Assembly (NCBI RefSeq): GCF_001005315.1
Contig: NZ_LBMG01000006.1
Coordinates: 62,001-126,000 of the forward strand
Source of the DNA: Kordia jejudonensis
GTDB lineage: Bacteria; Bacteroidota; Bacteroidia; Flavobacteriales; Flavobacteriaceae
Length of the DNA stretch: 64,000 nucleotides
Reading direction: 5' to 3'
Shown here: positions 1 to 17,962 of the stretch, piece after piece
Layout of the letters: the number at the start of each line of letters is the position of its first letter
Numbering within the stretch: position 1 is the stretch's first letter
Program-made: the position numbers and the translations under genes
The notes under the pieces: generated by a model
What the model saw: only the letters and a program-made list of their open reading frames with translations
What the model was told of the DNA's origin: nothing
Databases searched by the model: none

Positions 1-234
1 TGAAGCTGCTAAGTTTCCAGATATTGTAAAAACAGGATCATTTGGACCATCGCCATCTAAATCACGAGAAACTAGAGTAATTGTATTTCCTCCATTAGTT
101 AGTGAAACCGTAACTGTAGTAATTACTTCTTCTTCATTTACTGGTGCAGGTGCATCATCGTCACTAGAACATGCTGTAAAAAGTAAGCTTGTAATGGCTA
201 AAATTGTTAAAATTGAGAATTTGAATGTTTTCAT
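1..234 (-). CDS. Surface lipoprotein, 3' part outside window
   Basis: Only the first 78 codons are in the window; the gene continues past base 1. The N-terminus is a lipoprotein signal peptide with the lipobox F-T-A-C at Cys22. It is followed by SSDDD, an acidic stretch that in Bacteroidota acts as a surface-export signal for lipoproteins. Around residues 58-65 there is an acidic D-L-D-G-D-G turn that could bind a divalent cation. The gene begins 12 bases after the TonB receptor stop, so the two are very likely co-transcribed and the lipoprotein probably works beside the receptor. Its function is not known; the metal link rests on context. Confidence 0.75.
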   Translation of the reverse strand, partial: MKTFKFSILTILAITSLLFTACSSDDDAPAPVNEEEVITTVTVSLTNGGNTITLVSRDLDGDGPNDPVFTISGNLAAS

Positions 235-246
235 CTTTGAATTTTT

Positions 247-2649
247 TTAATATGTTATTTTTAAATTAATTGAAAAGTTTCTACCCAAATCATCTGCATA
301 ATAACGCAAACGGTTTAAGTAATTTCGATAGTTGGTATCGAAAAGGTTTGTAACAGCTACACCAACATGTAACATAGAATTTTTTCCTAAGTTAAAATCT
401 GCATTTGTACGCAAGTGTAGTAAATGGTACGCGTCTGGTGGCGTACTAACATCTACCAACTCTAGTGTGTTTGTTTCTGGAATAAAAGCTTCAAAATTGT
501 TGTCAGGGAATTCATTTTGTCTAAATGTATATTCGCTCTGTAACTCAATACGAAGATTTTTTAATTCCGAATTTTGATACACCAAGCTATTTGTTGTATT
601 TACCGGTGGCATATCAATTAATGGTAAATCGAGTGTTTCATCATATCCTTTTACCAATGAAAATTGATGTGAAAAATTCAAATTTTTCGTGAAGGTTACC
701 GACGCGTCAATGTCAAGTCCCATAAGAGTTGCATTGGTTTGTCTGTATTCCCATACTTGGAAATTTCCACGAATAGTTTGTTGAATTTCTGTTGGTTCAA
801 TAATCATAAAATCATTAATAAAACTGATATATGGATTCACTGAAAAACCAAAGGTTGTTCCTTGTTTCTGTAAGGTAATCGACACTTTGTGTGCAATTTC
901 TGAGTTAAAACTCAAGTCTCCTAATTCGATACGAGAAGCTGAATGATGCAATCCTTCACTAAATAATTCTGATGGATTCGGAGCCCGAGATGCCACAGAA
1001 TAATTCGTAAATAGCGTATAGTTGTCATTAAATGTATAGCGTGTACCTAACGTTGCAGATACGTTTGAATAGTCCAATTTCGGATTCGTCAATAATTGAT
1101 TACCAAACTCTTCCACTACGATCTCAGGAAATAATACATCGTAGTTTCTATCTTCCCAGAAAGAACTTCTATAAAACTTTTGGGCGTCTATATAAAAATA
1201 ATCAAATCGACCTCCAACTTCGACCAAAAAGTTGTCCGTTATTGAAAAATCGGCAACACCGTAAATTCCTAAATTAAACCGTTCATAATCCGGAATTAAT
1301 CTTCGTACACCTGTATTTGGATTGGCAACATTTTTTTGATATTGCCCCATAATTCCAGTATTCAGGTTAAAAAGTTCGGTATTGTCTGTATCTAAGTCCA
1401 AACGAATTGTTTGTGAGTTTAATGCTAAATCTAATGATGCTCTATCGTCATCATCACTACTTCTACGAACATCGAATTCGAGACGTTCGTTTCGTTGAAA
1501 ATCATATTGAAGTGTTACTTTACCAATATTCTTAAAGTTTTTAAAGCCACGTATTTTAAATAAATGGTGTGTGACATCCTGTTTTGGAGCGTCAATGTCA
1601 TACGTAAAATCTCTAATGATTAATGGAGTACCACTGTTAATAGCGCGCACTTGATCGCTTGCACCACCAATGTGTGATGCACGCAAAATGCCGATTTCAT
1701 TTTTAAAGTAAGAATAATAAGCTTCTAGTCCGTGATCATAATGATTGATTCCAATTCTGGCAGAAATACTACGTTCAAAGATTCCTGTATTGCTTAATAC
1801 ATAATCTGGCGCTTCATAATCGCCAAAACGTTTCATACTTCCTTGAATAGAACCATACCAACCATTTGCATAGCTTTTGGTAAGGGTAGAAGTCAAATTT
1901 CCACCACGACCATTGGTCGCAGCAGTTACATGCGTTTTTCCATAAATAGTATCTTTTACAGGAATTTTGGCAGCTTCTGTAACGATGATTCCACCAACTG
2001 CATCTCCACTGTATTTTAAGGCGCCAGCACCTTTGATCAGTGTTATGTTTCCGATAGTGTTGACATCGATGCTTGGAGCGTGTTCAGCTCCCCATTCCTG
2101 ATCTTCCATTCGGACACCATTATTCATTACAACCACACGACTACTGTGTACACCATTTATTATTGGCTTTACAACAGCATTTCCTGTGTTTAATGAAGAA
2201 ACACCACTCATCGTATTTAGAATGTCTCCTAAAGAGCTACTACTAAAGCGATCTAACTGTTTTTCCGTTATTTTTTGTTCAAAAATCGTCTTGGTTTTAT
2301 TGCCATAGATTTCTGCACTTAACGTGATAGCATTCAGTTCTTCTAAATGATGTTCGAGTTTAAAATTTCGTTTTACATTATCTGAAATTCGAACTTTGAA
2401 CGCTTGTGTTTCACAGTTTGGATGTGATATTTGAATCGTAAATGTTCCTTTGCAAAGGTTTGAAAATGAGTAGTTTCCTTCTAAATCAGACGTCGCTACT
2501 TTTTCAAATCCAGCAATGATTAATGTTGCACCTGGAAGTACAGAATTATCATGTAAATCAATTATTTTACCAGATAGTGTATAGTTGCATTCATTGTTTT
2601 GAGCAATCATACCACTACATAGCAGAAACATAAATATATATGTACGCAT
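247..2649 (-). CDS. TonB-dependent receptor, ZnuD-like (probable metal uptake)
   Basis: This 800-residue outer-membrane receptor has a short signal peptide (about 1-17), a carboxypeptidase-regulatory-like beta domain (about 21-110), a plug domain (about 120-235, containing INGVHSSRVVVMNNGVRMED) and a beta barrel ending in an aromatic-rich strand (SINLKITY). The barrel segment R-A-P-N-P-S-E-L-F-S-E-G-L-H-H-S-A is of the type seen in ZnuD/zinc receptors rather than SusC. There is no SusD gene next to it. The neighbours are a His/Cys-rich small protein upstream and a surface lipoprotein downstream, which fits metal uptake. Substrate zinc is an inference; iron complexes or another metal are possible. 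Confidence 0.85.
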   Translation of the reverse strand: MRTYIFMFLLCSGMIAQNNECNYTLSGKIIDLHDNSVLPGATLIIAGFEKVATSDLEGNYSFSNLCKGTFTIQISHPNCETQAFKVRISDNVKRNFKLEHHLEELNAITLSAEIYGNKTKTIFEQKITEKQLDRFSSSSLGDILNTMSGVSSLNTGNAVVKPIINGVHSSRVVVMNNGVRMEDQEWGAEHAPSIDVNTIGNITLIKGAGALKYSGDAVGGIIVTEAAKIPVKDTIYGKTHVTAATNGRGGNLTSTLTKSYANGWYGSIQGSMKRFGDYEAPDYVLSNTGIFERSISARIGINHYDHGLEAYYSYFKNEIGILRASHIGGASDQVRAINSGTPLIIRDFTYDIDAPKQDVTHHLFKIRGFKNFKNIGKVTLQYDFQRNERLEFDVRRSSDDDDRASLDLALNSQTIRLDLDTDNTELFNLNTGIMGQYQKNVANPNTGVRRLIPDYERFNLGIYGVADFSITDNFLVEVGGRFDYFYIDAQKFYRSSFWEDRNYDVLFPEIVVEEFGNQLLTNPKLDYSNVSATLGTRYTFNDNYTLFTNYSVASRAPNPSELFSEGLHHSASRIELGDLSFNSEIAHKVSITLQKQGTTFGFSVNPYISFINDFMIIEPTEIQQTIRGNFQVWEYRQTNATLMGLDIDASVTFTKNLNFSHQFSLVKGYDETLDLPLIDMPPVNTTNSLVYQNSELKNLRIELQSEYTFRQNEFPDNNFEAFIPETNTLELVDVSTPPDAYHLLHLRTNADFNLGKNSMLHVGVAVTNLFDTNYRNYLNRLRYYADDLGRNFSINLKITY

Positions 2650-2689
2650 GTATATTCTTAAAATTAAAAATAAAAAAATCTTACTTTAA

Positions 2690-3022
2690 TTAAGAAAATA
2701 TCGGTGGTGCACGTAATTTTTTGCTCGTAAGCGGTGAGTGATAACACAAAGGTGTAACAACACCTAAAGTAGTTTTCGAAATAATTGGAGGTACGTCTAA
2801 TGCAGGGTAACTTGTGAATTCATAAGTAAAACTTGAAAAATGAAAACTACACAAGTCACAGTGTAAATTGACTTCATGAATGTGTGCTGCCTGTTCATGA
2901 CATAACGTATACTCGTGTTCCTCTTCAAGTTGATGAGAAAACTGTATACAAGAAGGAAGCGCCAATGTTATGAGCAACAGTGCGGCTAAACTTATTTCTT
3001 TAATCTTGGTTACAGTATTCAT
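2690..3022 (-). CDS. Small His/Cys-rich exported protein
   Basis: This 110-residue protein has an N-terminal hydrophobic segment (about 10-25) that ends in L-P-S-C25, which could be a lipobox. Residues 30-60 are crowded with His and Cys (for example CHEQAAHIHE and HCDLCSFHF), a plausible metal-binding stretch. The C-terminus is basic and ends near RAPP. It is the first gene of the three-gene unit with the ZnuD-like receptor, 40 bases upstream of it. I do not recognise a named family. A metal-sensing or metal-buffering role in the envelope is inferred from composition and context only. A palindrome and a promoter lie directly upstream. Confidence 0.7.
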   Translation of the reverse strand: MNTVTKIKEISLAALLLITLALPSCIQFSHQLEEEHEYTLCHEQAAHIHEVNLHCDLCSFHFSSFTYEFTSYPALDVPPIISKTTLGVVTPLCYHSPLTSKKLRAPPIFS

Positions 3023-3036
3023 GATTTGGTCAATGC

Positions 3037-3060
3037 ATAAGTAGATGTTATGTTACTTAT
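3037..3060 (-). promoter_or_regulatory. Inverted repeat, candidate metal-regulator operator
   Basis: ATAAGTA (3037-3043) and TACTTAT (3054-3060) are perfect inverted arms with a 10-base spacer. The repeat lies between the -7 box at 3069-3076 and the start codon at 3022, a usual place for a repressor to block transcription. Binding by a Fur/Zur-family protein is a guess. Confidence 0.4.
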
Positions 3061-3068
3061 GTTGCAAA

Positions 3069-3076
3069 CAAATTTA
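3069..3076 (-). promoter_or_regulatory. Bacteroidota -7 promoter element
   Basis: The minus strand reads TAAATTTG, an exact match to the Bacteroidota TAnnTTTG -7 element, about 47 bases upstream of the His/Cys-rich gene. No clear -33 TTTG is visible. Confidence 0.5.
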
Positions 3077-3156
3077 GTAAATGCTTATTTGTAAAAAAAA
3101 TAACTTTCACATTATTTAACATACTATTTTAAAAGAAGTGAATCTGTAGCGGATTT

Positions 3157-3684
3157 TTATTTGATAATGCGCATGCGTCTGAGCATTTTCTTTTCAAATT
3201 CCCAGAAAAATTTAAACTGTCCTAAGAGTGTGCCAAAGATGAGCAATAGCACTTGATAGAGTGGAAGGATAATGATGATTCTAACAATCCAATATATGAA
3301 TCCTCCTATAAAACCATCTGAAAATAGCGCTCTTGTAAAACCAATTGCTTCTAAAATAGGTTTTGCAATTCGTAACGAACTTGATCCTGTTAAGGCAAAT
3401 ACAATAAAAATTGCAATCATTTCCCAGCGGTATCTGGTAACCCATTTGTTTTCAAGCTTTTTAAAACACCAAAGAAAAAAGCGCAACATGAGGTAATAAA
3501 AAATAACAATCAATAGTACAACCAAGACATAATAGAGCCATTCGTACTCTTGTCTGTCAATAAAACTGCGGATAATTTTTTTTGAAAAAAGGTATGCTGT
3601 GTATAATAATCCTAGAATTCCTAAAATGGGAAAGGTTAGTTGCCAGTTGTTTTGAATATCCCATCTTTGTTTGAATGCTTTCAT
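3157..3684 (-). CDS. Conserved membrane protein, DUF6787-like
   Basis: This 175-residue integral membrane protein has about four hydrophobic segments (roughly 17-35, 48-72, 87-107 and 125-155) with basic ends. The stretch from E-M-I-A-I-F-I-V-F to S-S-S-L-R-I-A-K-P resembles a Flavobacteriia family often mislabelled diacylglyceryl transferase (DUF6787). None of the catalytic features of the real Lgt enzyme are present. It stands 40 bases upstream of the next minus-strand gene and may share its transcript. Function is unknown. Confidence 0.65.
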   Translation of the reverse strand: MKAFKQRWDIQNNWQLTFPILGILGLLYTAYLFSKKIIRSFIDRQEYEWLYYVLVVLLIVIFYYLMLRFFLWCFKKLENKWVTRYRWEMIAIFIVFALTGSSSLRIAKPILEAIGFTRALFSDGFIGGFIYWIVRIIIILPLYQVLLLIFGTLLGQFKFFWEFEKKMLRRMRIIK

Positions 3685-3723
3685 GTGTACATTTTACTTT
3701 CGCAAATATACACAACTTCTACA

Positions 3724-4155
3724 TTATAAACGAGCAGGAAATACGCCTAACTTTTGTTTGTATTGTCGTTGAAAATAGATGAAATAATAATACAATAAAT
3801 AATTTACTTCATAGCCATAATCAACACTTGGGCGGAAATCAATTTGCTGTTGATACAAATTTGCATCATAGCGACTTGGATCAATGACACGTAAGTTCCA
3901 CTCGGTTACAAACAAAATATTACGCGTGCGCAAAAATTGTTTTGAATAATATTGTCGCGGTTGTGCATTACCAACTAGCCAAGCATTAAATCCAGGTTCG
4001 AAGATGATGATCTCATAACCATCGTCATCTGCGATACGAATACTGTCAGAAGCCTGCGTAACGTCGTCTGTTTTTTTCGTGATTGCTTTTTCTGGTGTAG
4101 CGCAAGAAAAGACGACAAGTCCTGCACAAGCAATTAATAATAATACTTTCTTCAT
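3724..4155 (-). CDS. Small lipoprotein, DUF6146-like
   Basis: This 143-residue protein begins with a lipoprotein signal peptide ending V-V-F-S-C18. After a short polar linker comes a compact domain containing IIFEPGFNAWLV, followed by a Tyr-rich segment (EVNYLLYYYFIYFQRQYK). This pattern matches the DUF6146 family of Bacteroidota as I recall it. The protein should be anchored in the envelope. No catalytic motif is visible and the function is unknown. Confidence 0.7.
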   Translation of the reverse strand: MKKVLLLIACAGLVVFSCATPEKAITKKTDDVTQASDSIRIADDDGYEIIIFEPGFNAWLVGNAQPRQYYSKQFLRTRNILFVTEWNLRVIDPSRYDANLYQQQIDFRPSVDYGYEVNYLLYYYFIYFQRQYKQKLGVFPARL

Positions 4156-4293
4156 AAAAAATTCAGTTTGTATAAAGGTACGATTTTTTTAAGAGCGACT
4201 TTATACAAACAAGCGAACAACACTTATGAATACGCAAGGCACACGTTTGAATGATTGTGATTTTTGAGAGCAGTAAGAAGATGCACTAAAACT

Positions 4294-7221
4294 TTATGAA
4301 GACCGCGTTTTTTTAAACCATAATAAACCAACGAATAGGAGCAAGCATCCAAAAGCAATTAAGTAGTAAATTGTATACTTATTTTGTGATTTGAAAGTAA
4401 TGCTATCATTGTTCCCAATATGTGTCCAAGCTGCCCAATAAAAAGGTAGGCGAGAAGCGGGACTGCTGATTTCATCATTTTCTAAATATTCCAATTGTGC
4501 TTGTTGTAAGGCAACACTTTTTGAGAATCCTTGTTGTAGATTTTTATAATATAAAGTCATAATATGAGCCGAAGAAGCATCAGGAATACTCCATAAAGTC
4601 GCTGTAACACTTGGAATGTTTGAAAAATTAAAGGCACGCGCCAAACTCTGCAAACCTTCTCCTTTTTGGTATTTTCCAAAACCAGTATTGCATGCGCTAA
4701 GCGTAATCATATCTGCATTGAAGTTATGATTGTATATTTCGTCTAAACGTAATAAATGACTATTTGTATTGTTTGTTTTGGTGAAAATTAACGCAGATAC
4801 ATTTGGATTTTTAGTATTCAGCAAGGCATGTGTTGCCAAATGAATGCTTTTAGAATTGGTCGCATGTGTGATAAAATTCTTTTTTGTTGCGGCAGTATTT
4901 ATCCAAGCTGTTCCTTGCATGAGCGCAGCGAGTTGTGTAGCTTCCTCATCAGCGAATGCAAGTTTTGAAAATATACCATTTCGCAGACTTTCCGTTTGGG
5001 TACTATTTTGAAGACTATCTTGTAGATAGGTTTGTAAATGCTGAATGGTTTCTTGATCCAATTCTAAACCAAAAGCAGTAAAGTTATTTGTTTGTATTTT
5101 AGTTTTGGGTTCTTGCAAGAGCATTTTACAAAAATAATGATAGCTGACAGCGTATTTTTTAAGAATGGAATGTTCGATGTTTGTCCACGAATCAGTTTGT
5201 TGTGTGATTAACGTCTGAAATGGAATTGCATGCAAAATACCATCAGGAATAATAATCAGTTGCTGAATATTCGTATTATTTTGATGATGTTGTATGGGTT
5301 TTTCCAAAATGGTTTTATAAATGTCAAAAGCTGTGGCAAGGAATTGCTTTTCAGCAACATTGTACTGTGATTGGATAAACGAAATATCGCTTAACGCTTC
5401 TCTGTATTGTGCAATTGATTCTTGAAACTGTTCAGGCAATTGAATTTCATCCACAAAAAAGTATTGTTTTGAAATTGAAAAGATATACAAGGTTTCAGCG
5501 CCTAAAAAGTACTTAATACATATGGTGTTGGCATCAATCTGATGTTGAATATCCGCAACGGAAACACCTTCTAAATCGTTTCTAATTTTGTCGAACTTTG
5601 GATAGTTTTTGGAGATTATAGCTTTTAGATATTCGAAATCTTCTTTTGCTTTCATCCACAATTCACGTGTGGAATCGATTTCAATTGAATCTTCTATTTT
5701 TCTGCTAAGAACCGCAATGTTTTTTAGGCTTTCTTGCCATAACGCAATAGTATCTTTTGGAATGTTTGCTACTTTTAATGCTTCTTGTTCATTTAATAAT
5801 TCACGCAGTACAAAAGCATTGGCGCGTTGTGAAATTTTGAAAGCTTCTTGTTGATAGTTCGTTTCTTGTGTATGTGCATACAAAGCTAAATTTACTTTGA
5901 TCAATTTTTCGTAAAATTCATTGCTATACGCGCCTAAATTTAGCTTAGTAGCAGCTTCTGTAAAATTCAATCGTTTTGTTTCGCTTGCATCTACTGCAAA
6001 TTCATAATTTTCTACCGCTTTTGTGAGCCAGTTTCTATTGTTCGTTGTTTCGTATTTGGCAATGTAACAATCTCCTTTATTTCTAAAAATATCGAGTAAC
6101 CAAATTTCTAGTGTCCACCAATCTTTTGGAGGATTTTTGCTAGGATCAACCTCTTTAAAACTCTGAATAAAAGTTTGCAGTGCTTTTTGATAGTTTTCTA
6201 AAGCTTTGTCATACTGTTTTGTAATTTTATAGGTATCTCCAATAAGAATATACAACTGCCCAATGTCTCTGGAATTCTTCAGCGATGCTACCAATGGGAT
6301 ACTTTTCAGAAATTCCGCTAATGCTTTTTCGGGTTGTTGTAACTTTATATAAATGTTGCCAAGTGAAATAGTAGCTTCGTTAAAGTTTCGACGACATAAA
6401 TATTGATTTTTAGAAGCATCATTTTTGCAATTTTCTGTCAAGCGAATTGCTTTTTTTACAACAACTAGCGCTTCGTTATACTGTTCCGATACGTATAAAA
6501 TATTGGCTTCAATAAGTTCAAATGTACCATCTTTATCGTCTTTGATAGCTTGTGCTTTTTTAAATGTTTGTAACGCTTTTTCATAATTACCATCATAAAA
6601 ATAAGCATCGCCAAGCGCTTTTGTATTCTTCCAAATTGCGAGTGTGTTTTTAGCCGATTTCGCATAGGTAATGGCAATTTTAGAATAGTGCTGCGCTTTT
6701 TCATATTTACCTTGTTGTGTGTAAATCAAGCTTATATTTCCAAGAATCCGATCGAGTAGTTCTAAATTTTTGGTTGTTTTAAAACAAGCTACACTCTTTT
6801 CATAATATGTCAATGCATCAGCAATAGCACCTACAGCATCGTAGCAATATCCTAGCAGCGCAAACATTTTTCCCTGTGTCAAAACTTCTGTTTCTGGAAG
6901 CTGCAAAAGTCCTTTTTGAATCAGCTCAATGCTTGTTTCATGATCTTCTGCATAGAATCCATTAAGTAGAATGGCATAATAAGCTTTATACCATGCATCC
7001 CATTTTTGTATTTTCTGAAAAAGGGAAGCTGCTTCTAATGCCGTTTGGTTGGCAGCTTTATAATTTTTTACTTGTGAAAGACTTTCCGCTTTGCGTAGCA
7101 ATTCTTTGCCTAAAATAGTATCATTTGCTATGGTTTGTGATACCGTTATTTGAATAGAAAAAACAATCACACAAACGGCGATTGTTTTTTTTGTAAGAAA
7201 TAATAATTGTTTAATACTCAA
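4294..7221 (-). CDS. TPR-CHAT protease-like protein, membrane-tethered
   Basis: This 975-residue protein has an N-terminal signal segment (about 10-29), a long array of tetratricopeptide helices (about 30-460), a helical linker, and a C-terminal CHAT domain (about 640-940), a caspase-like cysteine peptidase fold. The expected dyad is visible: His798 in I-H-L-A-T-H-A and Cys844 in I-T-L-S-A-C-N-T-G. A single hydrophobic segment (about 950-969) and a KKTRSS tail close the protein. This topology places TPR and CHAT in the periplasm, anchored at the C-terminus. The start codon overlaps the stop of the upstream T9SS gene by four bases, so the two are translationally coupled. A sigma factor and a membrane TPR protein are encoded divergently nearby. 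Peptidase activity is inferred from the intact dyad; the substrate is unknown. Confidence 0.85.
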   Translation of the reverse strand: MSIKQLLFLTKKTIAVCVIVFSIQITVSQTIANDTILGKELLRKAESLSQVKNYKAANQTALEAASLFQKIQKWDAWYKAYYAILLNGFYAEDHETSIELIQKGLLQLPETEVLTQGKMFALLGYCYDAVGAIADALTYYEKSVACFKTTKNLELLDRILGNISLIYTQQGKYEKAQHYSKIAITYAKSAKNTLAIWKNTKALGDAYFYDGNYEKALQTFKKAQAIKDDKDGTFELIEANILYVSEQYNEALVVVKKAIRLTENCKNDASKNQYLCRRNFNEATISLGNIYIKLQQPEKALAEFLKSIPLVASLKNSRDIGQLYILIGDTYKITKQYDKALENYQKALQTFIQSFKEVDPSKNPPKDWWTLEIWLLDIFRNKGDCYIAKYETTNNRNWLTKAVENYEFAVDASETKRLNFTEAATKLNLGAYSNEFYEKLIKVNLALYAHTQETNYQQEAFKISQRANAFVLRELLNEQEALKVANIPKDTIALWQESLKNIAVLSRKIEDSIEIDSTRELWMKAKEDFEYLKAIISKNYPKFDKIRNDLEGVSVADIQHQIDANTICIKYFLGAETLYIFSISKQYFFVDEIQLPEQFQESIAQYREALSDISFIQSQYNVAEKQFLATAFDIYKTILEKPIQHHQNNTNIQQLIIIPDGILHAIPFQTLITQQTDSWTNIEHSILKKYAVSYHYFCKMLLQEPKTKIQTNNFTAFGLELDQETIQHLQTYLQDSLQNSTQTESLRNGIFSKLAFADEEATQLAALMQGTAWINTAATKKNFITHATNSKSIHLATHALLNTKNPNVSALIFTKTNNTNSHLLRLDEIYNHNFNADMITLSACNTGFGKYQKGEGLQSLARAFNFSNIPSVTATLWSIPDASSAHIMTLYYKNLQQGFSKSVALQQAQLEYLENDEISSPASRLPFYWAAWTHIGNNDSITFKSQNKYTIYYLIAFGCLLLFVGLLWFKKTRSS

Positions 7222-8723
7222 TTTTTAATAACTTTTCGTGTGTATTGTCCTTCATTATTTTTTAAAGTTATGAAATACAAACCGCTTGAAACATCTTTTA
7301 AGTCAATTATTTTTGTAAAAATTAAGGAGTTTTGTGTTGGAATTGTATAGGACTTGATCACTTTTCCAGAAAAATCGAGTAACGAAATGCTGAGTTCAGT
7401 AGTTTTTTGTGTGTTAAAATTCACTTTGATATTCAATTGATTTTTCACAGGATTTGGAAAGACTGAAAATTCCAAAGGTTTTATATTATTTACGGGTATT
7501 TCCATGTTACTTTTATTGGCATCTGCATTACAAAGATCATAATCTGTACAATCTTCATAAGCACAAACTTCAGAAATATCTGTTATAAATTCAGGCTGTG
7601 TATCAAATATAATACTTGCTTCATTTGAAATACAACCTTTTAGATTTTCTTTCGTACAGATTTTAAATGAAAAATATGTGAAAGCTTCATCATACGAATA
7701 TACTTTTGGACTAGTTTGATTGGTTCCAGGCAAATTAATGTTTAAAAACTCAAAATCTAAAACGTCATCTTCTTCAAACCAACTGGGTTGTACTTCATAA
7801 TCTACCAAACTAATTTTATTAGGATCCAAATCGCTAGGAAGATGATCTTTCACAAACACATCTTTTGCAAAATATTCTCCATCATTAAAAAAACCGATAG
7901 TGTAAATTAATTCTTGATGATCAGATAGTGATGATTTTACACATTGCTTATTTGCAATTTTGAAATTTGGATCATGCGGATATTTTCGCGAAAGAAAACT
8001 ATGTGGACTGTTTATTCCTCTACTTGCGCAATCTGTTTTTAATTGTACATCAAGATGTATTGTTTGTCCTACAGGCACAAGTGTTTCTGCTGGTACGTAT
8101 ACATATCTTACTTCATTAGGCAGTAAGTTGAAAAAATTCCACGTTATTTTATGTGTATGCGTACTTGAAGGCAACGGAATACTTTGATTGCTTACCCAAT
8201 TATTGTAAATTTTAGTGTTAGATTGATTTACAGAAATCTCATTGTTGTTGTAATGAAATTCAAGACAACCACCTGGATAGGTTGCAGCACTCGTATTTCT
8301 AAACGCGATGATATAAAAATTTTCATAATGTTGAGCAGTTGCCCAACTCGTCATTAAATCAACCTCACCAGTCATACTGATGGTTGGGTTTGTGAGGGTT
8401 CCAGTGTTTGTGCCAACAGGACTAATATTAGCTACTTTTTTGGGTGGTAAATTAGGATCGTACGCACGTACAAAATAGGATTCTGATATGTATCCAGATT
8501 GATTTGGCGGAAATATATGCGTTGGCATACTTTGCGAACTAAAAGTGCCGTCGCCAAACAAAGTAAACACAAAGGTGTTATCACCTGCATTATTGATATC
8601 GTACGCTACGAGACCACTAGCTTCTTGACTGATGTTAATTGTAGGACTGTACTGCGCATGAGTTGTAAAAATGAAACATATCCACAGTAAAAAGACGTAT
8701 GTAAGGTATTTAGTAGTTTTCAT
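7218..8723 (-). CDS. T9SS-exported protein with DUF7619-like domain
   Basis: This 501-residue secreted protein has a signal peptide (about 1-23), an N-terminal beta-rich region, and a repeat-like beta domain (about 260-385) of the DUF11/DUF7619 kind, recognisable from Y-T-I-G-F-F-N-D-G-E and F-V-K-D-H-L-P. The end is a type A T9SS sorting domain starting at F-S-V-F-P-N-P-V and finishing G-L-Y-F-I-T-L-K...K-V-I-K-N. It should be exported through the outer membrane and the C-terminal domain cleaved. Its last bases overlap the CHAT gene start (ATGA), so it is the direct operon partner of the CHAT protein and a candidate partner or substrate. Confidence 0.85.
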   Translation of the reverse strand: MKTTKYLTYVFLLWICFIFTTHAQYSPTINISQEASGLVAYDINNAGDNTFVFTLFGDGTFSSQSMPTHIFPPNQSGYISESYFVRAYDPNLPPKKVANISPVGTNTGTLTNPTISMTGEVDLMTSWATAQHYENFYIIAFRNTSAATYPGGCLEFHYNNNEISVNQSNTKIYNNWVSNQSIPLPSSTHTHKITWNFFNLLPNEVRYVYVPAETLVPVGQTIHLDVQLKTDCASRGINSPHSFLSRKYPHDPNFKIANKQCVKSSLSDHQELIYTIGFFNDGEYFAKDVFVKDHLPSDLDPNKISLVDYEVQPSWFEEDDVLDFEFLNINLPGTNQTSPKVYSYDEAFTYFSFKICTKENLKGCISNEASIIFDTQPEFITDISEVCAYEDCTDYDLCNADANKSNMEIPVNNIKPLEFSVFPNPVKNQLNIKVNFNTQKTTELSISLLDFSGKVIKSYTIPTQNSLIFTKIIDLKDVSSGLYFITLKNNEGQYTRKVIKN

Positions 8724-8791
8724 TGCTTTTATTGTTTTATAGTATAGAAATATAGGGGATATTGTACTTTAAATATAAGTAAAAACTTAAA

Positions 8792-8830
8792 ATAATATCA
8801 CACAGCACACGTGTTACCATGTGATATTAT
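8792..8830 (-). terminator. Hairpin terminator after the 8843-10495 gene
   Basis: ATAATATCACA (8792-8802) and TGTGATATTAT (8820-8830) form a perfect 11-bp stem. The minus strand continues into a T-rich tail. It ends the upstream T9SS gene transcript and separates it from the T9SS-CHAT pair. Confidence 0.65.
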
Positions 8831-8842
8831 ACTGGTTAGCAC

Positions 8843-10495
8843 TTAATTTTTGATGAGTTTTTTAACTTCCGTCGTATTTCCAACTGTAATCTTTAAAAAG
8901 TAAATTCCAGCAGTATAGTTAGTAATATCTAAATGATATGATCTGTTCAATGGAATAGTTTCTTTGGTAAAAATTGACTTTCCAGCAATATTGGTAATTG
9001 TAATTTCATAAGCTTTTTCGTTTACAGCAGTCTTAAAATTCGGTTGAATACTGTAATTTCCATTAGATGGATTTGGATAAATTACAAAATTAGAAGGCTT
9101 TTCAGAAGTACCATTCAGTTGATCGGAAGCCTTTTTTTCTGTTCGAGCCCATTCATCACAAACTACTTTATAAATCACAGTACAACTGCAACCTGTTTCC
9201 GAAATAAAAGTTACCGAATATTCTCCGCCAGGCACATAATCAACCACTTGAGATGATTGTGTTGACGATTCTCCAACACCATTTATAATATAGGAATAAT
9301 AGCCATCTGTTCCACCACAAGCTTCCATAACAATTCTACCTTCTTCTTCAGGACAAACTTCTTTAATGATCACTTCATCCTCTTTGGTTACATTTACACA
9401 TAAAAATAATTCACAGCATTCATAAATTACTTTTAATACAGTATTTTCTTGAAAATAAATAGGTGCCGTAGGTAGATAAGATACCTGACTCACTAAATCT
9501 TCGATACCTACAATATCTCCTTCACATGTGTCTGGAAAACTGATAGTATTTGGGTCAAATGGTTCGCCACAAGCAAGATCAACACACGAGGTATGTACTT
9601 CTTTTTTTGTAATATTGAATTTTCTTTTTATGATGTGTTTAATTCCGCAAGCATCCCAATATTCAAAAGTTACCGTATACGTTCTACCTGCCTGAAACCC
9701 ATTCCAAAGGCTTCTAAAATCAATAAGGTTTACGTTTCCAGAAATTCCCAATGTAGCATGTTTCAGAACATTTCCACCATTAGTTACATCGTGAATCAAC
9801 CATCGGTAAGACATCAAACCACTAGGAACGGCTATTGGTAGAATTGGGTCATCTTCACAATATTCATCTTTCATGGTAAAAATTGGAGTAACATTCGCTA
9901 ACGAAATCACAACGTCATCAATATTCATTTCCGCTTGACTTACACCATTGCTTGGGTTTGCCATATACGGAAAAATCCATAAGCGACTATAATTATTGTC
10001 GGGTGTAAATTGTACATTAATGTTTGTCCATGTATTTAGATACGCTCCCATGGTATTCTGAAAAATAGGATCTCCAGAAGGATTTGGCGTTACAGGACCT
10101 GCATTATTTGTAGCGATAAGATTTACAATTGCATTATTGGCTACATTAGGATCGCCAGAATTACGATCGTCCGTTCTGATTCTGAAACAAATGTTGTAGG
10201 TAACACCTCGTTGGAAGTTCATTGGTGCAGAAATAGCTTCGCCGCCGCCGCCGTATGACCACATCCAAGCATTTGAATTGGACGGAAAATTACTGATACT
10301 TGCCGTTCCGCCTTCGTTTGCCCAACCAGGTACACAATTGTTACTAAACGCATTGTTTCCTCCGCAGGTAGCGGCGTTAAAGTTTCCATTGGTAATTAAG
10401 TTGTTATTCGGATCGCAGCAGATTTCTTGAGCGTTCGCAACACCAAATGATGCTAAAAAAATAATACTTAAGAATAGTTTTTTAATTTTTTTCAT
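8843..10495 (-). CDS. T9SS-exported protein, carbohydrate-binding-like N-terminal domain
   Basis: This 550-residue protein has a 22-residue signal peptide. It is followed by a domain (about 25-200) starting NLITNGNFNA, a pattern typical of carbohydrate-binding-module-like jelly rolls in secreted proteins. A Cys-rich middle region (about 205-450) follows, then a type A T9SS sorting domain beginning F-V-I-Y-P-N-P-S and ending K-K-L-I-K-N. It is divergent from the sigma factor gene with 147 bases between them, so the shared region may control both. The ligand is unknown. It probably belongs to the output of the sigma/CHAT locus, which is an inference from position. Confidence 0.82.
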   Translation of the reverse strand: MKKIKKLFLSIIFLASFGVANAQEICCDPNNNLITNGNFNAATCGGNNAFSNNCVPGWANEGGTASISNFPSNSNAWMWSYGGGGEAISAPMNFQRGVTYNICFRIRTDDRNSGDPNVANNAIVNLIATNNAGPVTPNPSGDPIFQNTMGAYLNTWTNINVQFTPDNNYSRLWIFPYMANPSNGVSQAEMNIDDVVISLANVTPIFTMKDEYCEDDPILPIAVPSGLMSYRWLIHDVTNGGNVLKHATLGISGNVNLIDFRSLWNGFQAGRTYTVTFEYWDACGIKHIIKRKFNITKKEVHTSCVDLACGEPFDPNTISFPDTCEGDIVGIEDLVSQVSYLPTAPIYFQENTVLKVIYECCELFLCVNVTKEDEVIIKEVCPEEEGRIVMEACGGTDGYYSYIINGVGESSTQSSQVVDYVPGGEYSVTFISETGCSCTVIYKVVCDEWARTEKKASDQLNGTSEKPSNFVIYPNPSNGNYSIQPNFKTAVNEKAYEITITNIAGKSIFTKETIPLNRSYHLDITNYTAGIYFLKITVGNTTEVKKLIKN

Positions 10496-10624
10496 GGTTT
10501 AAAAATTTATTGGTTATTGACTTCTATTTGTTGTATAACCTTTTCAAAGCGCAAACGTGACATTATTTTTTAGTCACATTTTTCATAAATTATGTTTATA
10601 AGAGTAAAGCAGCATTTTTTTCTG

Positions 10625-10632
10625 TAATTTTG
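10625..10632 (+). promoter_or_regulatory. Bacteroidota -7 promoter element for the sigma factor
   Basis: TAATTTTG matches TAnnTTTG exactly and ends 10 bases before the sigma factor start codon, giving a very short leader. Confidence 0.5.
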
Positions 10633-10642
10633 TAGTACAATT

Positions 10643-11245
10643 ATGAAGTATAAGCCTACTCTAAATACTACAGATGCTACGCGTACCAACGTACAGCAAA
10701 ATTTTGGATTGAATGAAGCATCATTTAATGAAATGCTTCAAAACATGAAGACAGGAAATGAAGAACTGTTTGAAAAGATATTTTTAGCACAGTTTGAAGA
10801 GACCATTTCATACATCATGAATCGTTACAAAGTCTCTCGATCGATGGCATATGATGCAACAATGGATGCTTTGCTAAAGTTTAGAAAACGTTTGTTAGAA
10901 GGAAAAATTACGTATTACAACATGCGGTTTTTGTTTACGCAAATGGCAGGACAGTTTTTAACAAATACGTTGAAGAAAAATAATAAATCGGTTGCCATTA
11001 CAGAAAACGAAGATGTAGGCGAAATTGAAGAAACAATAGATGCCAACATTCTAGATTATTTAGATATCGCTTGGAAACAATTGGGCGATCAGTGTGGCAA
11101 GTTGTTGGAAAATTTTTATTATAAGAAAATCGCCTTAAAAGAATTGGCAAAAAAACTCGGCAAATCGGATGCAGCATTGCGAAAACAAAAACAACGATGT
11201 TTAGAAACATTGCGATCCTATTTTCTAAAACAATACAAAGGATAA
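10643..11245 (+). CDS. ECF-like sigma-70 family RNA polymerase sigma factor
   Basis: This 200-residue protein has a region-2-like helical part (about 38-110, with ELFEKIFLAQFEETISYIMN) and a region-4 helix-turn-helix (about 145-195, with LKELAKKLGKSDAALRKQKQ). The linker between them is poor in conserved residues, as in ECF sigma factors. The first 30 residues are a poorly conserved extension. It is followed after 37 bases by a one-pass membrane TPR protein that is placed like an anti-sigma factor, and is divergent from exported proteins and the CHAT protein. It probably directs transcription of part of this locus; the target promoter is not known. Confidence 0.85.
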   Translation: MKYKPTLNTTDATRTNVQQNFGLNEASFNEMLQNMKTGNEELFEKIFLAQFEETISYIMNRYKVSRSMAYDATMDALLKFRKRLLEGKITYYNMRFLFTQMAGQFLTNTLKKNNKSVAITENEDVGEIEETIDANILDYLDIAWKQLGDQCGKLLENFYYKKIALKELAKKLGKSDAALRKQKQRCLETLRSYFLKQYKG

Positions 11246-11282
11246 CCATGATTATCGCAGGCATGTGATATAAAGAAAGTAT

Positions 11283-11978
11283 ATGGATTATAAAAAATAT
11301 ACCGAAAAAGGAACACTCTCAACAGATGAATTAGAAGCAATTAGTGAAGAATTGATTCAAGCAAAGTTTGATAGAGAGAAACGGGAAGCATTAACAGCTC
11401 GGCTAAAAAATGAGTTTGGAGTTACGCGAGAAACGACTCCTAAAAAGAAAAACGTTCTCTTTTCAAAATTAGCAATTGCAGCAATTTTAGTTGGTTTTAT
11501 AGGAATTGTAACGTACAGTGTTATTTTGTACACAACACCAAGCTATGATTCGGTTGTCAAAGCGTCAATTGAAAATTTGATTACGATAGACAATCAAGCT
11601 GTTGTAACGCGTGGAGATGAATCGGTTCATAAAGAGACATTAGCTGCAATAAACGCTTATAAGAATCAGCAATATGATGAAAGTATAATTATTTGGAAAA
11701 AAATAATTTCCGCAGAAAAGGTAGAAGGCGCTTCGTATTATAATTTGGCAATCTGTTATTTGCAAAAAACACCTCCAGAACCTAGTGTCGCAATCAACTT
11801 TTTAGTGAAAGCTAGGAACGCAAAAACTGTTCAAGAAGAAGCAAATTGGGCATTGGCTTTAGCGTATATACAAGCAAATCGAAAAGCGGAAGCAAAAGAA
11901 ATTTTAGAAGAAATCATTCGCGCCAAAGCGTACAAATATAAAAGGGCAGAAGTACTATTGACAAAGTTGCAAAAATAA
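11283..11978 (+). CDS. One-pass membrane TPR protein, possible anti-sigma partner
   Basis: This 231-residue protein has a polar cytoplasmic N-terminus of about 58 residues, one membrane segment (about 60-83), and a C-terminal periplasmic TPR region (about 110-230, with YNQ-type helices such as ASYYNLAICYLQ and WALALAYIQANRKAEAKEI). It follows the sigma factor gene by 37 bases, the usual arrangement for a sigma/anti-sigma pair. It shows no zinc-binding anti-sigma motif, so an anti-sigma role is inferred from position and topology. The periplasmic TPR could contact the periplasmic TPR-CHAT protein. A terminator overlaps its stop codon. Confidence 0.75.
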   Translation: MDYKKYTEKGTLSTDELEAISEELIQAKFDREKREALTARLKNEFGVTRETTPKKKNVLFSKLAIAAILVGFIGIVTYSVILYTTPSYDSVVKASIENLITIDNQAVVTRGDESVHKETLAAINAYKNQQYDESIIIWKKIISAEKVEGASYYNLAICYLQKTPPEPSVAINFLVKARNAKTVQEEANWALALAYIQANRKAEAKEILEEIIRAKAYKYKRAEVLLTKLQK

Positions 11979-12000
11979 AGCGAACCGAAGTTCGCTTTAT
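11975..12000. terminator. Bidirectional hairpin terminator
   Basis: ATAAAGCGAAC and GTTCGCTTTAT form a perfect 11-bp stem around a CGAA loop. The TPR gene stop codon lies inside the left arm. It separates that gene from the convergent precursor-peptide gene. Confidence 0.7.
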
Positions 12001-12017
12001 ACGCATCAACTAAAATC

Positions 12018-12281
12018 CTACCCTACAGGACTGTCTACAGACGCATTTGCCGCTGCATCACTATGAACTGGTTCATATGGATTATATACACTTGGAGCTG
12101 CATCCAATGGAGGAAATTTTATTTCTTCACACAGTATTCCTTCTTTTGTTACGATACAAAGAGCTGGACAGTTGGAAATTTGAAGTCCAGAATTTGATAC
12201 TTCTCCGCCTTTCAATTCATTTGCAAAGTTTGCAATAGATTTTTTGTTTAATGATAAACTGTTTACATTTCTTTTTTTCAT
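12018..12281 (-). CDS. Orphan lanthipeptide-like precursor with double-Gly leader
   Basis: This 87-residue peptide starts MKKRNVNSLSLNKKSIANF and has a GG pair at 25-26, the leader layout of class I lanthipeptide-like precursors of Bacteroidota (L-x-L-x-K-x-x-I). The putative core carries Cys38, Cys42 and Cys51, several Ser/Thr, and a Pro/Ala-rich tail. Three more peptides with the same leader lie at 35.5, 38.6 and 38.9 kb. No dehydratase, cyclase or peptidase-ABC exporter gene is in the window, so any modification must come from elsewhere. The product and its role are unknown. Confidence 0.75.
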   Translation of the reverse strand: MKKRNVNSLSLNKKSIANFANELKGGEVSNSGLQISNCPALCIVTKEGILCEEIKFPPLDAAPSVYNPYEPVHSDAAANASVDSPVG

Positions 12282-12387
12282 AGTATAAAATTTTATGCCT
12301 AGAAGTCACTATGACTCCTTTCTATTGCTATAACTTTTTGAGATGTAAAACGTGACATTATTTTTTAATAAAAATTATGACATAAAA

Positions 12388-12415
12388 AAAAGCATCAACT
12401 TTCGTCAATGCTTTT
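12388..12415 (-). terminator. Hairpin terminator after the DUF937 gene
   Basis: AAAAGCAT and ATGCTTTT form an 8-bp stem with a 12-base loop. The minus strand continues into seven Ts. Confidence 0.6.
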
Positions 12416-12438
12416 CTATGTGTATTTGTAGTATTTTT

Positions 12439-13107
12439 TTATTTTCCTCCGAAAAGTCCGCCTAACAATCCACCAAGACCACCGCCGCTGTTTCCTGAGT
12501 TGTTATTGTTATCGTTTCCTTTAAAAATCATTCCTGCGATATCGTCAATAACGCTTCCGTCATTATCTGCATCTAAAATCGATTCAATAAAACTTTGTTG
12601 TTGTGGTGCTTGTGATGATCCGCCACCACCTAACAATCCGCCAAGTAAATCGCCGATTCCGTTAGAACTCTGTACATTTTGCTGACGTTTTTGCTTTCCT
12701 AAAACACCCATTAATATTGGAGCAGCCACTTTTAAGATTTCTCCAATAGAAGAACTGTCAACACCAGATTGTCTACTAATAGCATTTTCAACATTAGACC
12801 TACGATCTCCTAAAACATGACGTAAAATTCCGTCTCCATCTTGTTTTACTTCCTGATTTACGCCGCCGCCAAATAAGCTGCCTAAATTATCTAAAATACT
12901 ACCATCGTGTTTATTTTCTAAAGCTTTGTTTAAGCCTTCTGCACCTTCATTTGTGCTTGCATTTCTTTTCATTGCTCCCATAAGTACAGGTAATGCCATA
13001 CTTAATACTGAAGCCGTTTTGTTTTGATCTTGTCCCACTTCATTACTCACTCCGCCAATGATTTGTTTTCCTAAATCACTGTTTAATAAATCTAAAATTC
13101 CAGACAT
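12439..13107 (-). CDS. DUF937 (YidB-like) protein
   Basis: This 222-residue protein starts with a DUF937-type helical repeat (about 1-100, with SVLSMALPVLMGAMKRNA) and repeats the pattern at about 115-140 (ILKVAAPILMGVLGKQKRQQ). The C-terminus is Gly/Asn-rich low complexity, ending GLGGLLGGLFGGK. No signal peptide is visible. The family is widespread but has no established biochemical role. The gene is monocistronic with its own terminator. Confidence 0.85.
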   Translation of the reverse strand: MSGILDLLNSDLGKQIIGGVSNEVGQDQNKTASVLSMALPVLMGAMKRNASTNEGAEGLNKALENKHDGSILDNLGSLFGGGVNQEVKQDGDGILRHVLGDRRSNVENAISRQSGVDSSSIGEILKVAAPILMGVLGKQKRQQNVQSSNGIGDLLGGLLGGGGSSQAPQQQSFIESILDADNDGSVIDDIAGMIFKGNDNNNNSGNSGGGLGGLLGGLFGGK

Positions 13108-13255
13108 TTTATAAATGATGTTTATTGTTAATATGTTTACAAGATAGCAATATTCTGTAAGATTTTAAATATGACTATTTGTTTTTTAAGGGAACTGTAT
13201 TAAATGCAGAAATATCGGTTGAATGGATTTTTTATTCGACTAGAAACACAAAAAA

Positions 13256-13269
13256 CACTCATTTGAGTG
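13256..13269 (-). terminator. Hairpin terminator after serA
   Basis: CACTCA and TGAGTG form a 6-bp stem with a TT loop, flanked by A- and T-runs that give a minus-strand T tail. Confidence 0.55.
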
Positions 13270-13298
13270 CTTTTTGATGGTATGATATGTAGATACTA

Positions 13299-14258
13299 TT
13301 ACTTCTCAGTTTTGAGAATTGCTGCGATTTGTGACGCCAATTCCAACCCAATTCTATCTTGTGCTTCGTTTGTTGCCGCGCCAATATGTGGTGTTAATGA
13401 TACATTCGGATTCATTAATACTTTGATTGCTGGCGTTGGTTCGTTTTCAAATACATCTAATCCTGCAAAGGCTAGTTTGTTATTGTCCAATGCGTCAATT
13501 AAGGCAACTTCGTCAATAATGCCACCACGCGATGCATTTACAATTCCAGCACCAGTTTTCATGAGTTCAAATTCTTTTTTCCCAATAATGTAGTCTTTTT
13601 GTGCAGGAACATGTAATGTGATAAAATCTGAATGTTGCAAAACGTCTTCCATAGGTTCTGTGTCAATTTCTACATTGATAAACTGTCCGTTGTAAAAATC
13701 AACCTTTACAGTAGCTTTGCTAATAAATTTATCAGCAGCAATAACCTTCATGCCTAGTCCTAATGCAATTTTAGCAACTTCACGACCAATACGTCCAAAA
13801 CCGATAATTCCGAGTGTTTTACCACGTAATTCAGTTCCTTTTGCGTAGGCTTTTTTCAAATCTTTAAAACGAGAATCGCCTTCTAAAGGCATATTTCTAT
13901 TCGCATCATGTAAGAAACGAACGCCGTTGAATAAGTGACCAAAAACCAATTCGGCTACAGAACTTGAAGAAGCCGCTGGTGTATTGATGACATGAATTTC
14001 TTTTGAACGTGCATATTCCACATCTATATTGTCCATTCCGACACCACCACGACCGATGATTTTTAAGCTTTTGCAGGCATCAATGATATCTTTGCGAACT
14101 TTTGTAGCACTTCTGACTAACAACACATTTACTTCGTTTTTATTGATGTAATTGATGAGTTGTTCTTGGGCAACTTTTGTCGTAATCACTTCGAATCCAT
14201 CTTTTTCTAAAGCGTCAATTCCACTTTGAGAGATTCCGTCGTTTGCTAATATTTTCAT
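13299..14258 (-). CDS. serA: D-3-phosphoglycerate dehydrogenase (D-2-hydroxyacid dehydrogenase family)
   Basis: This 319-residue NAD-dependent dehydrogenase has the Rossmann motif G-F-G-R-I-G at 153-158 and the catalytic triad of the family: Arg244 (N-A-S-R-G-G), Glu273 (E-N-E-P) and His291 (L-T-P-H-I-G). It is short and lacks the C-terminal ACT domain of large SerA proteins. It lies 48 bases downstream of serC in the same direction, which supports serine biosynthesis from 3-phosphoglycerate. By sequence alone another D-2-hydroxyacid substrate cannot be excluded. Confidence 0.88.
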   Translation of the reverse strand: MKILANDGISQSGIDALEKDGFEVITTKVAQEQLINYINKNEVNVLLVRSATKVRKDIIDACKSLKIIGRGGVGMDNIDVEYARSKEIHVINTPAASSSSVAELVFGHLFNGVRFLHDANRNMPLEGDSRFKDLKKAYAKGTELRGKTLGIIGFGRIGREVAKIALGLGMKVIAADKFISKATVKVDFYNGQFINVEIDTEPMEDVLQHSDFITLHVPAQKDYIIGKKEFELMKTGAGIVNASRGGIIDEVALIDALDNNKLAFAGLDVFENEPTPAIKVLMNPNVSLTPHIGAATNEAQDRIGLELASQIAAILKTEK

Positions 14259-14306
14259 GATTTAATTTAAATATTCAGAGATTAAATAATTGAAAGCTAT
14301 GTTTTA

Positions 14307-15371
14307 TTACGCGTTCTTTTCTAATGTTTGCATCACATCAACTAATACTTGTACGCTTTCTACAGACAAGGCATTGTACATGGACGCTCTGTATCCGCCA
14401 ACACTTCTATGTCCGTTAAGTCCGTTGATTCCAGCTTCGTTCCACATAGTGTCAAACGTTTCTTTTAAGGCTTCATTTTCTAGTGTGAATGTAGCATTCA
14501 TATGACTTCTATCTTCTGTTGCAACCACACCTTTGAATAGTGGATTTCTATCAATTTCGTTGTATAACAAAGCAGATTTTTGCTCGTTTACTTTTTCTAT
14601 TGCGGCAATTCCACCTAAATTTTTCAACCATTCTAGTGTCAACATTGAAACGTATACTGGAAATACAGCTGGCGTGTTAAACATACTGTCTTTTCCAATA
14701 TGTACTTTATAGTCTAACATGGAAGGAATGGTTCTGTTTACTTTTCCAAGAATTTCTTCTTTTACCACTACCAATGTTGTTCCGGCTGGTCCCATATTTT
14801 TCTGCGCTCCAGCGTAAATAAGATCAAATTTCGAAAAATCTAATTGACGCGAAAAGATATCTGAACTCATGTCGCAAACCAAAGAAACATTGGTTTCTGG
14901 AAAGCTTTTCATTTGAGTTCCGAAAATGGTATTGTTACTTGTACAGTGAAAATAATCAGCGTCAGAAGGAATTTCGTATCCTTTTGGAATGTATGTAAAG
15001 TTTTTATCTTTTGAAGAGGCAACTTCTACAACTTCGCCAAAAAGATTGGCTTCTTTAATGGCTTTTGTACTCCAAGTTCCAGTGTTTAAATAGGCTGCTT
15101 TTGTGTTTAATAAATTATAAGCAGTTGCTAAAAACTGTGTACTTGCGCCACCATGTAAAAAAAGTGCTTGGTATCCTTTTCCTTCTAAACCAAGTAATTC
15201 TAATGCCAAACTACGTGCATTTTCCATTACGTGTACAAAAGGTTTGCTTCGGTGCGATATTTCAATTAATGATAAATTGTCATTATTAAAATTCAATACG
15301 GCTTCAGATGCCTTCTGCAATACTTCTTGTGGTAAAATACAAGGTCCTGCGCTAAAGTTATGTTTTTTCAT
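14307..15371 (-). CDS. serC: Phosphoserine aminotransferase
   Basis: This 354-residue PLP enzyme converts 3-phosphohydroxypyruvate and glutamate to phosphoserine. The start chosen is the Met of M-K-K-H-N-F-S-A-G-P, the conserved N-terminus of SerC; an in-frame Met 11 codons upstream is not used in this family. The PLP-binding lysine is Lys191 in Y-A-G-A-Q-K-N. The substrate-binding H-R-S is present near the C-terminus (LNGHRSVGGYRAS). It precedes serA in a two-gene serine operon. Confidence 0.95.
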   Translation of the reverse strand: MKKHNFSAGPCILPQEVLQKASEAVLNFNNDNLSLIEISHRSKPFVHVMENARSLALELLGLEGKGYQALFLHGGASTQFLATAYNLLNTKAAYLNTGTWSTKAIKEANLFGEVVEVASSKDKNFTYIPKGYEIPSDADYFHCTSNNTIFGTQMKSFPETNVSLVCDMSSDIFSRQLDFSKFDLIYAGAQKNMGPAGTTLVVVKEEILGKVNRTIPSMLDYKVHIGKDSMFNTPAVFPVYVSMLTLEWLKNLGGIAAIEKVNEQKSALLYNEIDRNPLFKGVVATEDRSHMNATFTLENEALKETFDTMWNEAGINGLNGHRSVGGYRASMYNALSVESVQVLVDVMQTLEKNA

Positions 15372-15510
15372 TTCAATGTATTTGTCGTGTGTTCTTAATT
15401 TCAATGCAAAGTTGCTAAATTATGAACGAATTGTTGTTATGATTATCCTAAATATTTTAGTTTGATGGGTCAAGAATTCTATAAAAGTTATGCTGCAAAG
15501 CATTCATTAC

Positions 15511-16251: not shown

Positions 16252-16272
16252 TTTTGGTTGCGGTTTTGATGA

Positions 16273-17340: not shown

Positions 17341-17480
17341 CTGAATTTGTTTTTGAATAGTTTTGGCGCTATTTTTGTAAAATATACGAATGACGCCAAG
17401 ATTTATTTTTGGCGAATTTATAAAACTTTTACCGCATTTGTGGTAGTTGATAACAAGATTGTAAACGAAAAGAAAAAATA

Positions 17481-17834: not shown

Positions 17835-17870
17835 TTTTTTTTAATTCAGAATTTAGAATTATGAATTTTG

Positions 17871-17919: not shown

Positions 17920-17962
17920 ATTCTAAAACTAAAGAAGAGACGTTAAAAGTCACAGATCTGCA

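Follow-up and report, generated by a model that had tools for sequence, protein, structure and literature searches.

The 64-kb window analysed here (the whole stretch from position 62,001 to 126,000 of the Kordia jejudonensis contig NZ_LBMG01000006.1, forward strand) carries, at its positions 4294-11978, a divergent locus. A sigma factor gene and the gene of a tetratricopeptide repeat (TPR) membrane protein lie on the plus strand, facing two export genes and a TPR-CHAT gene on the minus strand. An original prediction, made from the letters alone, had proposed this set (sigma factor, one-pass TPR protein, two proteins exported by the type IX secretion system (T9SS), TPR-CHAT protein), and each of these genes was recovered where it had been placed. 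The sigma factor (200 aa) is encoded at 10643-11245 and the TPR protein (231 aa) at 11283-11978. On the minus strand, the first gene behind a promoter-like motif (8843-10495) and a DUF7619 gene present in all four orthologous loci (7218-8723) both encode exported proteins with a C-terminal T9SS sorting domain (PF18962, E 2.4e-13 and 2.1e-14). The third gene (4294-7221) encodes the TPR-CHAT caspase-like protein, which displays a signal peptide-like start and a C-terminal membrane anchor and, with 975 aa, is the largest open reading frame (ORF) of the window. Its start codon is TTG, so that the overlap with the stop of the export gene reads TTGA, as it does in the four orthologous loci, and not ATGA as had been described.

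Predicted roles and topology of the proteins

Taken as a single protein, the sigma factor scores 37.2 bits against the sigma70-ECF (extracytoplasmic function) model, under the cut-off of 42.9, and matches no Pfam family. A profile of 42 relatives matches the structures of the ECF sigma factors SigW, SigH and RpoE, the best match (SigW, 5wuq, E 8.1e-21) spanning positions 7-178 of the 188 in the profile, i.e., both conserved ECF regions. By profile comparison, the product of 10643-11245 is an ECF-type sigma factor.

The TPR protein has a single predicted membrane helix at residues 58-83. In its AlphaFold2 (AF2) model (pLDDT 83.7), N-terminal helices lie within residues 3-44 and TPR helices begin at about residue 113, with the linker residues R110-G111 between the membrane helix and the TPR domain. 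The lysines and arginines preceding the membrane helix outnumber those following it in 130 of the 137 family members, equal them in 7 and fall short of them in none, a basic bias that argues for an N-in topology. The Pfam family zf-HC2 is found in 2 of 49 family members, one of which, from Calditrichia (L047), displays the H-x3-C-x2-C zinc anti-sigma motif on pattern reading. Because of the N-in topology and this Calditrichia relative, the TPR protein is probably an anti-sigma factor with a cytoplasmic N-terminus and a periplasmic TPR domain. It combines the traits of transmembrane anti-sigma factors, namely a gene adjoining that of the sigma factor, one membrane helix and an N-terminus predicted inside by hydropathy, charge and model. 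In FecI/FecR cell-surface signalling, the membrane partner carries a FecR domain, unlike the window protein, which at E 0.05 matches TPR families alone; in the other family members, the FecR check covered the 25 most frequent of 71 families. With the model as query, Foldseek returned generic TPR matches alone among the 50 best (best E 1.0e-3).

In the TPR-CHAT protein, the Pfam CHAT domain covers residues 632-937 (E 9.5e-53). The intact catalytic pair that had been reported, H798 and C844, is indeed present and is invariant in 56 aligned homologues, which argues for retained catalysis. A search of PDB sequences with the CHAT domain of the window alone gave no convincing match. From hydropathy and the structure model (pLDDT 88.1, pTM 0.84), the protein is predicted to be held in the inner membrane by its C-terminal anchor, with a periplasmic catalytic domain; a cytoplasmic CHAT domain, which would have spoken against the original prediction, is not what the signal peptide-like start and the anchor indicate.

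Among CHAT proteins fetched outside the genus, a C-terminal anchor was found in 17 of 18 encoded beside a sigma-TPR pair vs 2 of 20 without a pair, for loci selected by presence or absence of a TPR match, with a hydropathy threshold of 1.8 picked after the values were seen, counts entered by hand and phylogeny uncorrected. Two of the 20 loci without a TPR match (L124, L127) carry a lone sigma-like ORF. The association of anchor and pair is not universal, since unanchored CHATs with a pair exist in the set of 80 loci described below (Calditrichia L047, Bacteroidales L076, Aliifodinibius L089 and L091, Saprospiraceae L103). Five genomes of 2 to 3 Mb (G037, G041, G075, G078, G105) hold 7 to 14 CHAT matches and no full-length TPR match. 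The CHATs sampled from G037, G041, G078 and G105 lack a C-terminal anchor, most of them begin with what resembles a signal peptide, and they may form a second class of CHAT that is secreted. Within a single family, four genomes (G001, G286, G303, G337) each yield between 33 and 40 CHAT candidates at first look, which would amount to a large expansion if these are genuine.

Conservation and co-inheritance of the unit

In the own genome, each of the five CHAT matches has a sigma gene nearby and, behind it, the gene of a one-pass TPR protein; at least one exported gene, as judged by eye, lies between sigma and CHAT. These intervening genes include S8 subtilases at two loci (PF00082, E 5.7e-30 and 2.9e-24) and a DUF4412 protein at one. 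The S8 genes beside CHAT have lipoprotein-like starts (L009, 5355-6707, plus strand; L008, 5277-6590, plus strand; further loci of the genus). At L008, a 207-aa ORF of repeats of about 28 residues (6681-7304, minus strand) between the S8 gene and CHAT is possibly an intergenic DNA tandem repeat and not a gene.

An adjacent sigma-TPR pair occurs in 54 of 59 CHAT loci, i.e., the own five and 49 of the 54 fetched from ten same-genus genomes and G129, a member of the same family (four orthologues of the window locus and fifty others, three further CHAT matches of G138 being left unfetched). The five pairless loci comprise one at a contig end (L191), two with an anchored CHAT but no pair within the stretch fetched (L195, L197) and two in which neither a signal peptide nor an anchor of the CHAT is clear (L204, L205). 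Among the best 80 of 561 CHAT loci in named records, mostly Bacteroidota, the pair adjoins CHAT in 42, and in 21 of the 33 loci flanked by 7 kb in either direction. Pairs beside CHAT are found in many Bacteroidota and also in Calditrichota, Chlorobiota and Aliifodinibius metagenome-assembled genomes (MAGs).

Across 119 same-class genomes, 26 of 47 near-full-length TPR matches (starting at model position 65 or before and ending at 190 or beyond, partial rows dropped) lie within 10 kb of a CHAT match, vs 1.26 expected by chance, the 47 TPR and 125 CHAT rows having been entered by hand. Leaving out the own genome, the figure is 21 of 42, and two more CHATs (L106, L108) surfaced on fetching 16 of the 21 far TPR places. 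The original prediction had judged an accident unlikely and had named the lack of a conserved neighbourhood as grounds for its rejection; this enrichment agrees with the former, and the unit recurs across genomes.

At the genome level, where the pair is represented by the TPR protein, 396 same-class genomes divide into 69 with TPR protein and CHAT, 4 with the TPR protein and no CHAT, 71 with CHAT alone and 252 with neither (p = 2e-32, with kinship ignored and a TPR profile built mostly from CHAT neighbours). In these counts, the two CHAT searches scored at most 18 (first) and 5 (second) candidates per genome, the second reporting all 140 genomes with their matches listed in part. TPR matches reach about 2e-27, weaker ones being counted as absent (e.g., G055, no CHAT, and G118, one CHAT), and the two genome sets of the TPR searches overlap. 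The last genome search, unpaired with a CHAT search, gave a TPR match at E 1e-30 in 78 of 392 genomes. Of 40 TPR loci fetched, 35 have an adjacent sigma gene by rule; at L225, the sigma ORF overlaps the TPR ORF by 166 bases. The idea of an asymmetry, in which CHAT would need the pair and not the reverse, was dropped, as the TPR protein is rarely found in genomes without CHAT.

When sigma types are set at over 50% identity, CHAT and the TPR protein have their nearest neighbours within their own sigma type in 50 of 54 cases, the other four being one-member types. Compared with the four orthologous loci, identity amounts to 72-77% for the sigma factor, 54-69% for the TPR protein, 55-60% for CHAT and 50-55% for the DUF7619 export protein. 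The first export gene has a homologue in two of these four loci, another ORF taking its place in the other two. On sequence comparison, the sigma factor, the TPR protein and CHAT descend together in matched sets, and species exchange the first exported gene among themselves. The view of the locus as one unit is supported for the three conserved genes and not for the exported partners, which are not fixed.

Promoter-like motif and predicted regulon

The divergent region contains two copies of a promoter-like motif, GTCACRTTT followed after a spacer of exactly 14 bases by TTATA: GTCACGTTT-N14-TTATA (10534-10561, minus strand) before the export-CHAT operon and GTCACATTT-N14-TTATA (10573-10600, plus strand) before sigma-TPR. 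Only two further copies occur in the own genome, one in the window (GTCACGTTT-N14-TTATA, 12329-12356, minus strand) before a small GG-leader peptide gene (12018-12281, minus strand), the other on another contig before a paralogous peptide gene. Over 11 genomes, the spacer-14 motif gives 15 matches. Five genomes have an intact orthologous sigma factor, and eight of the matches fall in their divergent regions; six precede GG-leader peptide genes in four of these five genomes and one stands in G123 with no peptide ORF downstream; none was found in the five other genomes without the orthologous sigma factor. One further peptide gene (L147) is preceded by a one-base variant. Upstream of the sigma genes of other types, different conserved elements were seen by eye. 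As the shared motif faces both operons and precedes peptide genes, the sigma factor probably drives its own operon, the export-CHAT operon and the GG-leader peptides, as far as sequence can tell.

The product of 12018-12281 (87 aa), a predicted regulon member, is a lanthipeptide-like precursor with a GG leader. It scores 14.1 bits with NF038153 (lant_leader_L1a), under the cut-off of 22, and none of the four peptides scanned exceeds the cut-off of this class I lanthipeptide leader model (14.1 to 16.4 bits). Such genes behind the motif include that of the window and L022 (5362-5607, plus strand), and no modification genes were noticed by eye beside the motif-linked ones. A short inverted repeat, AGGAGTCA/TGACTTCT (12301-12323, minus strand), read by eye, lies in the peptide leader, and similar repeats precede other peptide genes, also by eye. 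At a paralogous locus, a GG-leader peptide gene (L016, 3751-3960, plus strand) directly follows the sigma-TPR pair, and the window motif is absent from the 100 bases upstream of it. In G123, the sole match to the sigma factor (G123:C42:29205-29582) contains six stops and has beside it a DUF937 neighbour of the window locus; together with the lone motif (L151, G123:C67:45145), this is an apparent joint decay of regulator and target.

Precedents, proposed mechanism and rival explanations

Foldseek and VIA-align searches with the CHAT model list Csx29, separase and DdvA along with many plain TPR structures. A CHAT-only profile matches one PDB sequence under E 0.001, that of DdvA (7.9e-5), in which both catalytic columns, His and Cys, are retained. 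In the parts of the sources considered, DdvA of the Myxococcus xanthus DdvS/DdvA system (PDB 8rot, 8rw5) is a transmembrane anti-sigma factor uniting TPR and CHAT in one chain, and the ECF sigma factor DdvS is active once DdvA is inactivated, the signal being unknown (PMC4374960). The window locus has the same TPR-CHAT fold over its periplasmic part, whereas no chain of the window joins an anti-sigma domain to CHAT: the anti-sigma factor and the TPR-CHAT protein are split between separate genes of divergent operons on opposite strands, and the predicted regulon holds T9SS cargo and peptides. By analogy, drawn from structure titles, alignment tables and one HMMER alignment, the locus looks like a split version of DdvA.

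The other precedent is Craspase of type III-E CRISPR, where, according to the text excerpted, the protease Csx29 cuts Csx30, an inhibitor of an ECF sigma factor, and sigma motifs are present in its own locus (PMC10028731); its orthologues are described in part of another report as cutting at non-conserved sites (PMC11106740). The window locus resembles the logic of this system (TPR-CHAT protein Csx29, Csx30 and CASP-sigma), except that its protease is predicted to be exported and membrane-anchored and that its putative anti-sigma factor is a TPR membrane protein. The protease of Craspase is cytoplasmic. Cas7-11, by its size, is larger than 975 aa, and since no ORF of the window exceeds this length, a gene of Cas7-11/gRAMP size is excluded from the 64 kb, as judged by size and not by a Cas profile search. 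Within positions 1-20000, no direct repeats of at least 24 bases within 120 bases were found, and PADLOC gave weak generic TPR, CasR and subtilase matches alone. The earlier suggestion of a non-CRISPR envelope version of Craspase stands for the predicted envelope location and for the lack of any CRISPR part seen in the window, but DdvA is a closer precedent than Craspase.

More distant systems share single traits. In the portion of PMC7712824 considered, PorXY-SigP of Porphyromonas gingivalis is a system in which a protein with a T9SS C-terminal domain influences the signal that reaches an ECF sigma factor; it is a two-component system for which, unlike the window, no TPR anti-sigma factor or CHAT appears. 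The anti-sigma/sigma pairs of PMC13088901, which are specific to Bacteroidota and act across the envelope, are by description of the same general kind as the window pair, and the part of that report considered mentions no CHAT protease. Where ECF sigma factors are freed by proteolysis, the classical link is to proteases such as DegS, as excerpted from PMC10028731. The logic is thus known in pieces, from DdvA and Craspase, whereas the literature searched yielded no example of the split, exported, multi-copy and probably autoregulated form that carries T9SS cargo. Among the open-licence PMC full texts searched, the Craspase paper alone was found to bring a CHAT domain together with an anti-sigma factor, and none was found that treats a CHAT domain together with Bacteroidetes and sigma.

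From the observed gene set, predicted topology, co-inheritance and shared motif, we infer promoter activity, anti-sigma binding, cleavage and a trigger in the following way. The sigma factor would be held by the cytoplasmic N-terminus of the TPR anti-sigma factor. Once the latter is inactivated, it would transcribe its own operon, the divergent export-CHAT operon and the GG-leader peptides. CHAT, sharing a compartment with the TPR domain of the anti-sigma factor, most likely acts on this domain, either by cutting it in the manner of a site-1 protease or by binding it as a co-sensor. The outcome would be positive feedback, with its trigger at the envelope. Such a self-amplifying unit, with a periplasmic CHAT acting on the anti-sigma factor, is favoured with slightly better than even confidence. 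That CHAT frees the sigma factor, by a cut in the TPR protein or in an exported partner, had already been proposed; as the motif puts the export-CHAT operon downstream of the sigma factor, any such release would be feedback and not a simple upstream step.

If true, this reading would give a sigma/anti-sigma pair a caspase-fold protease of its own in the periplasm, across many lineages and with several copies in each genome. One principle would then cover the logic of Craspase, the hitherto unexplained CHAT domain of DdvA and surface export by the T9SS, and many genes annotated as 'CHAT domain' or 'TPR protein' would gain a suggested function. Apart from this, the S8 subtilase genes that recur next to CHAT form a two-protease pairing. 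A bolder extension, tentative and rather unlikely to hold in full, sees a family of CRISPR-free periplasmic 'caspase-sigma' switches, with several insulated sets of sigma factor, TPR anti-sigma factor and anchored CHAT in a genome, each set having its own promoter code and swappable surface cargo. Upon contact or an attack on the envelope, CHAT would cut the linker of its own anti-sigma factor near the conserved R/K-G/S and release the sigma factor, and surface proteins, peptides and proteases would be made in a self-amplifying burst, with DdvA as the fused form.

Several observations weigh against the feedback reading and are given here with the explanations that they favour. CHAT might be an output only, the sigma/TPR pair sensing an envelope signal alone and turning on CHAT, which would process or degrade T9SS cargo, S8 protease and GG peptides and leave the anti-sigma factor intact. 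The probable sigma promoter before the export-CHAT operon and the overlap of the CHAT start with the export stop would fit this, as would the S8 genes between sigma and CHAT at two own loci (with related or S8-patterned ORFs elsewhere) and the existence of TPR/sigma pairs without a nearby CHAT. An independent switch needs no CHAT, however, and the TPR protein is without any CHAT match in only 4 of 73 genomes; both the DdvA fusion and Craspase, moreover, tie TPR-CHAT to an ECF anti-sigma factor. Overall, this explanation is a possible but less likely one. Less probable still is a non-cleaving CHAT, the TPR protein and TPR-CHAT forming one anti-sigma complex like DdvA as a regulated scaffold. 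The single DdvA chain and the inheritance of sigma, TPR protein and CHAT as sets point that way, but the invariant His and Cys speak against it.

A chance neighbourhood, in which surface-protein and regulator genes come together through gene-family expansion with no function, would agree with the variable exported genes, the first of which has no homologue in two of the four orthologous loci, and with the several copies in many genomes. The excess of TPR genes near CHAT, the spread of pairs over Bacteroidota, Calditrichota, Chlorobiota and Aliifodinibius MAGs and the matched inheritance have largely refuted it already, and it is very improbable. To the points against the feedback reading are added two counts. 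At all spacings, the motif gives 17 matches vs 18 in the reversed control; its abundance was therefore dropped as evidence, and the argument is carried by its position. The second count concerns the linker of the TPR protein.

Cutting of the anti-sigma factor by CHAT is an inference for which the linker gives a lead only. An R or K stands at the aligned position of R110 in 105 of 115 CHAT-linked members, but also in 12 of 17 unlinked members from CHAT-bearing genomes and in 3 of 5 from genomes without a CHAT match. As a discriminator, the site was rejected: a first sample gave 95 of 103 linked vs 9 of 14 unlinked, and the difference weakened with added genomes (p about 0.05 in the larger sample, with R, K and M counted together). 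The counts cover TPR ORFs shorter than 340 aa that passed the E cut-offs. At L105-L108, L218, L223 and L226, where the aligner put only some of the linkers in the same column, M-G or M-S was seen by eye to replace R/K-G or R/K-S.

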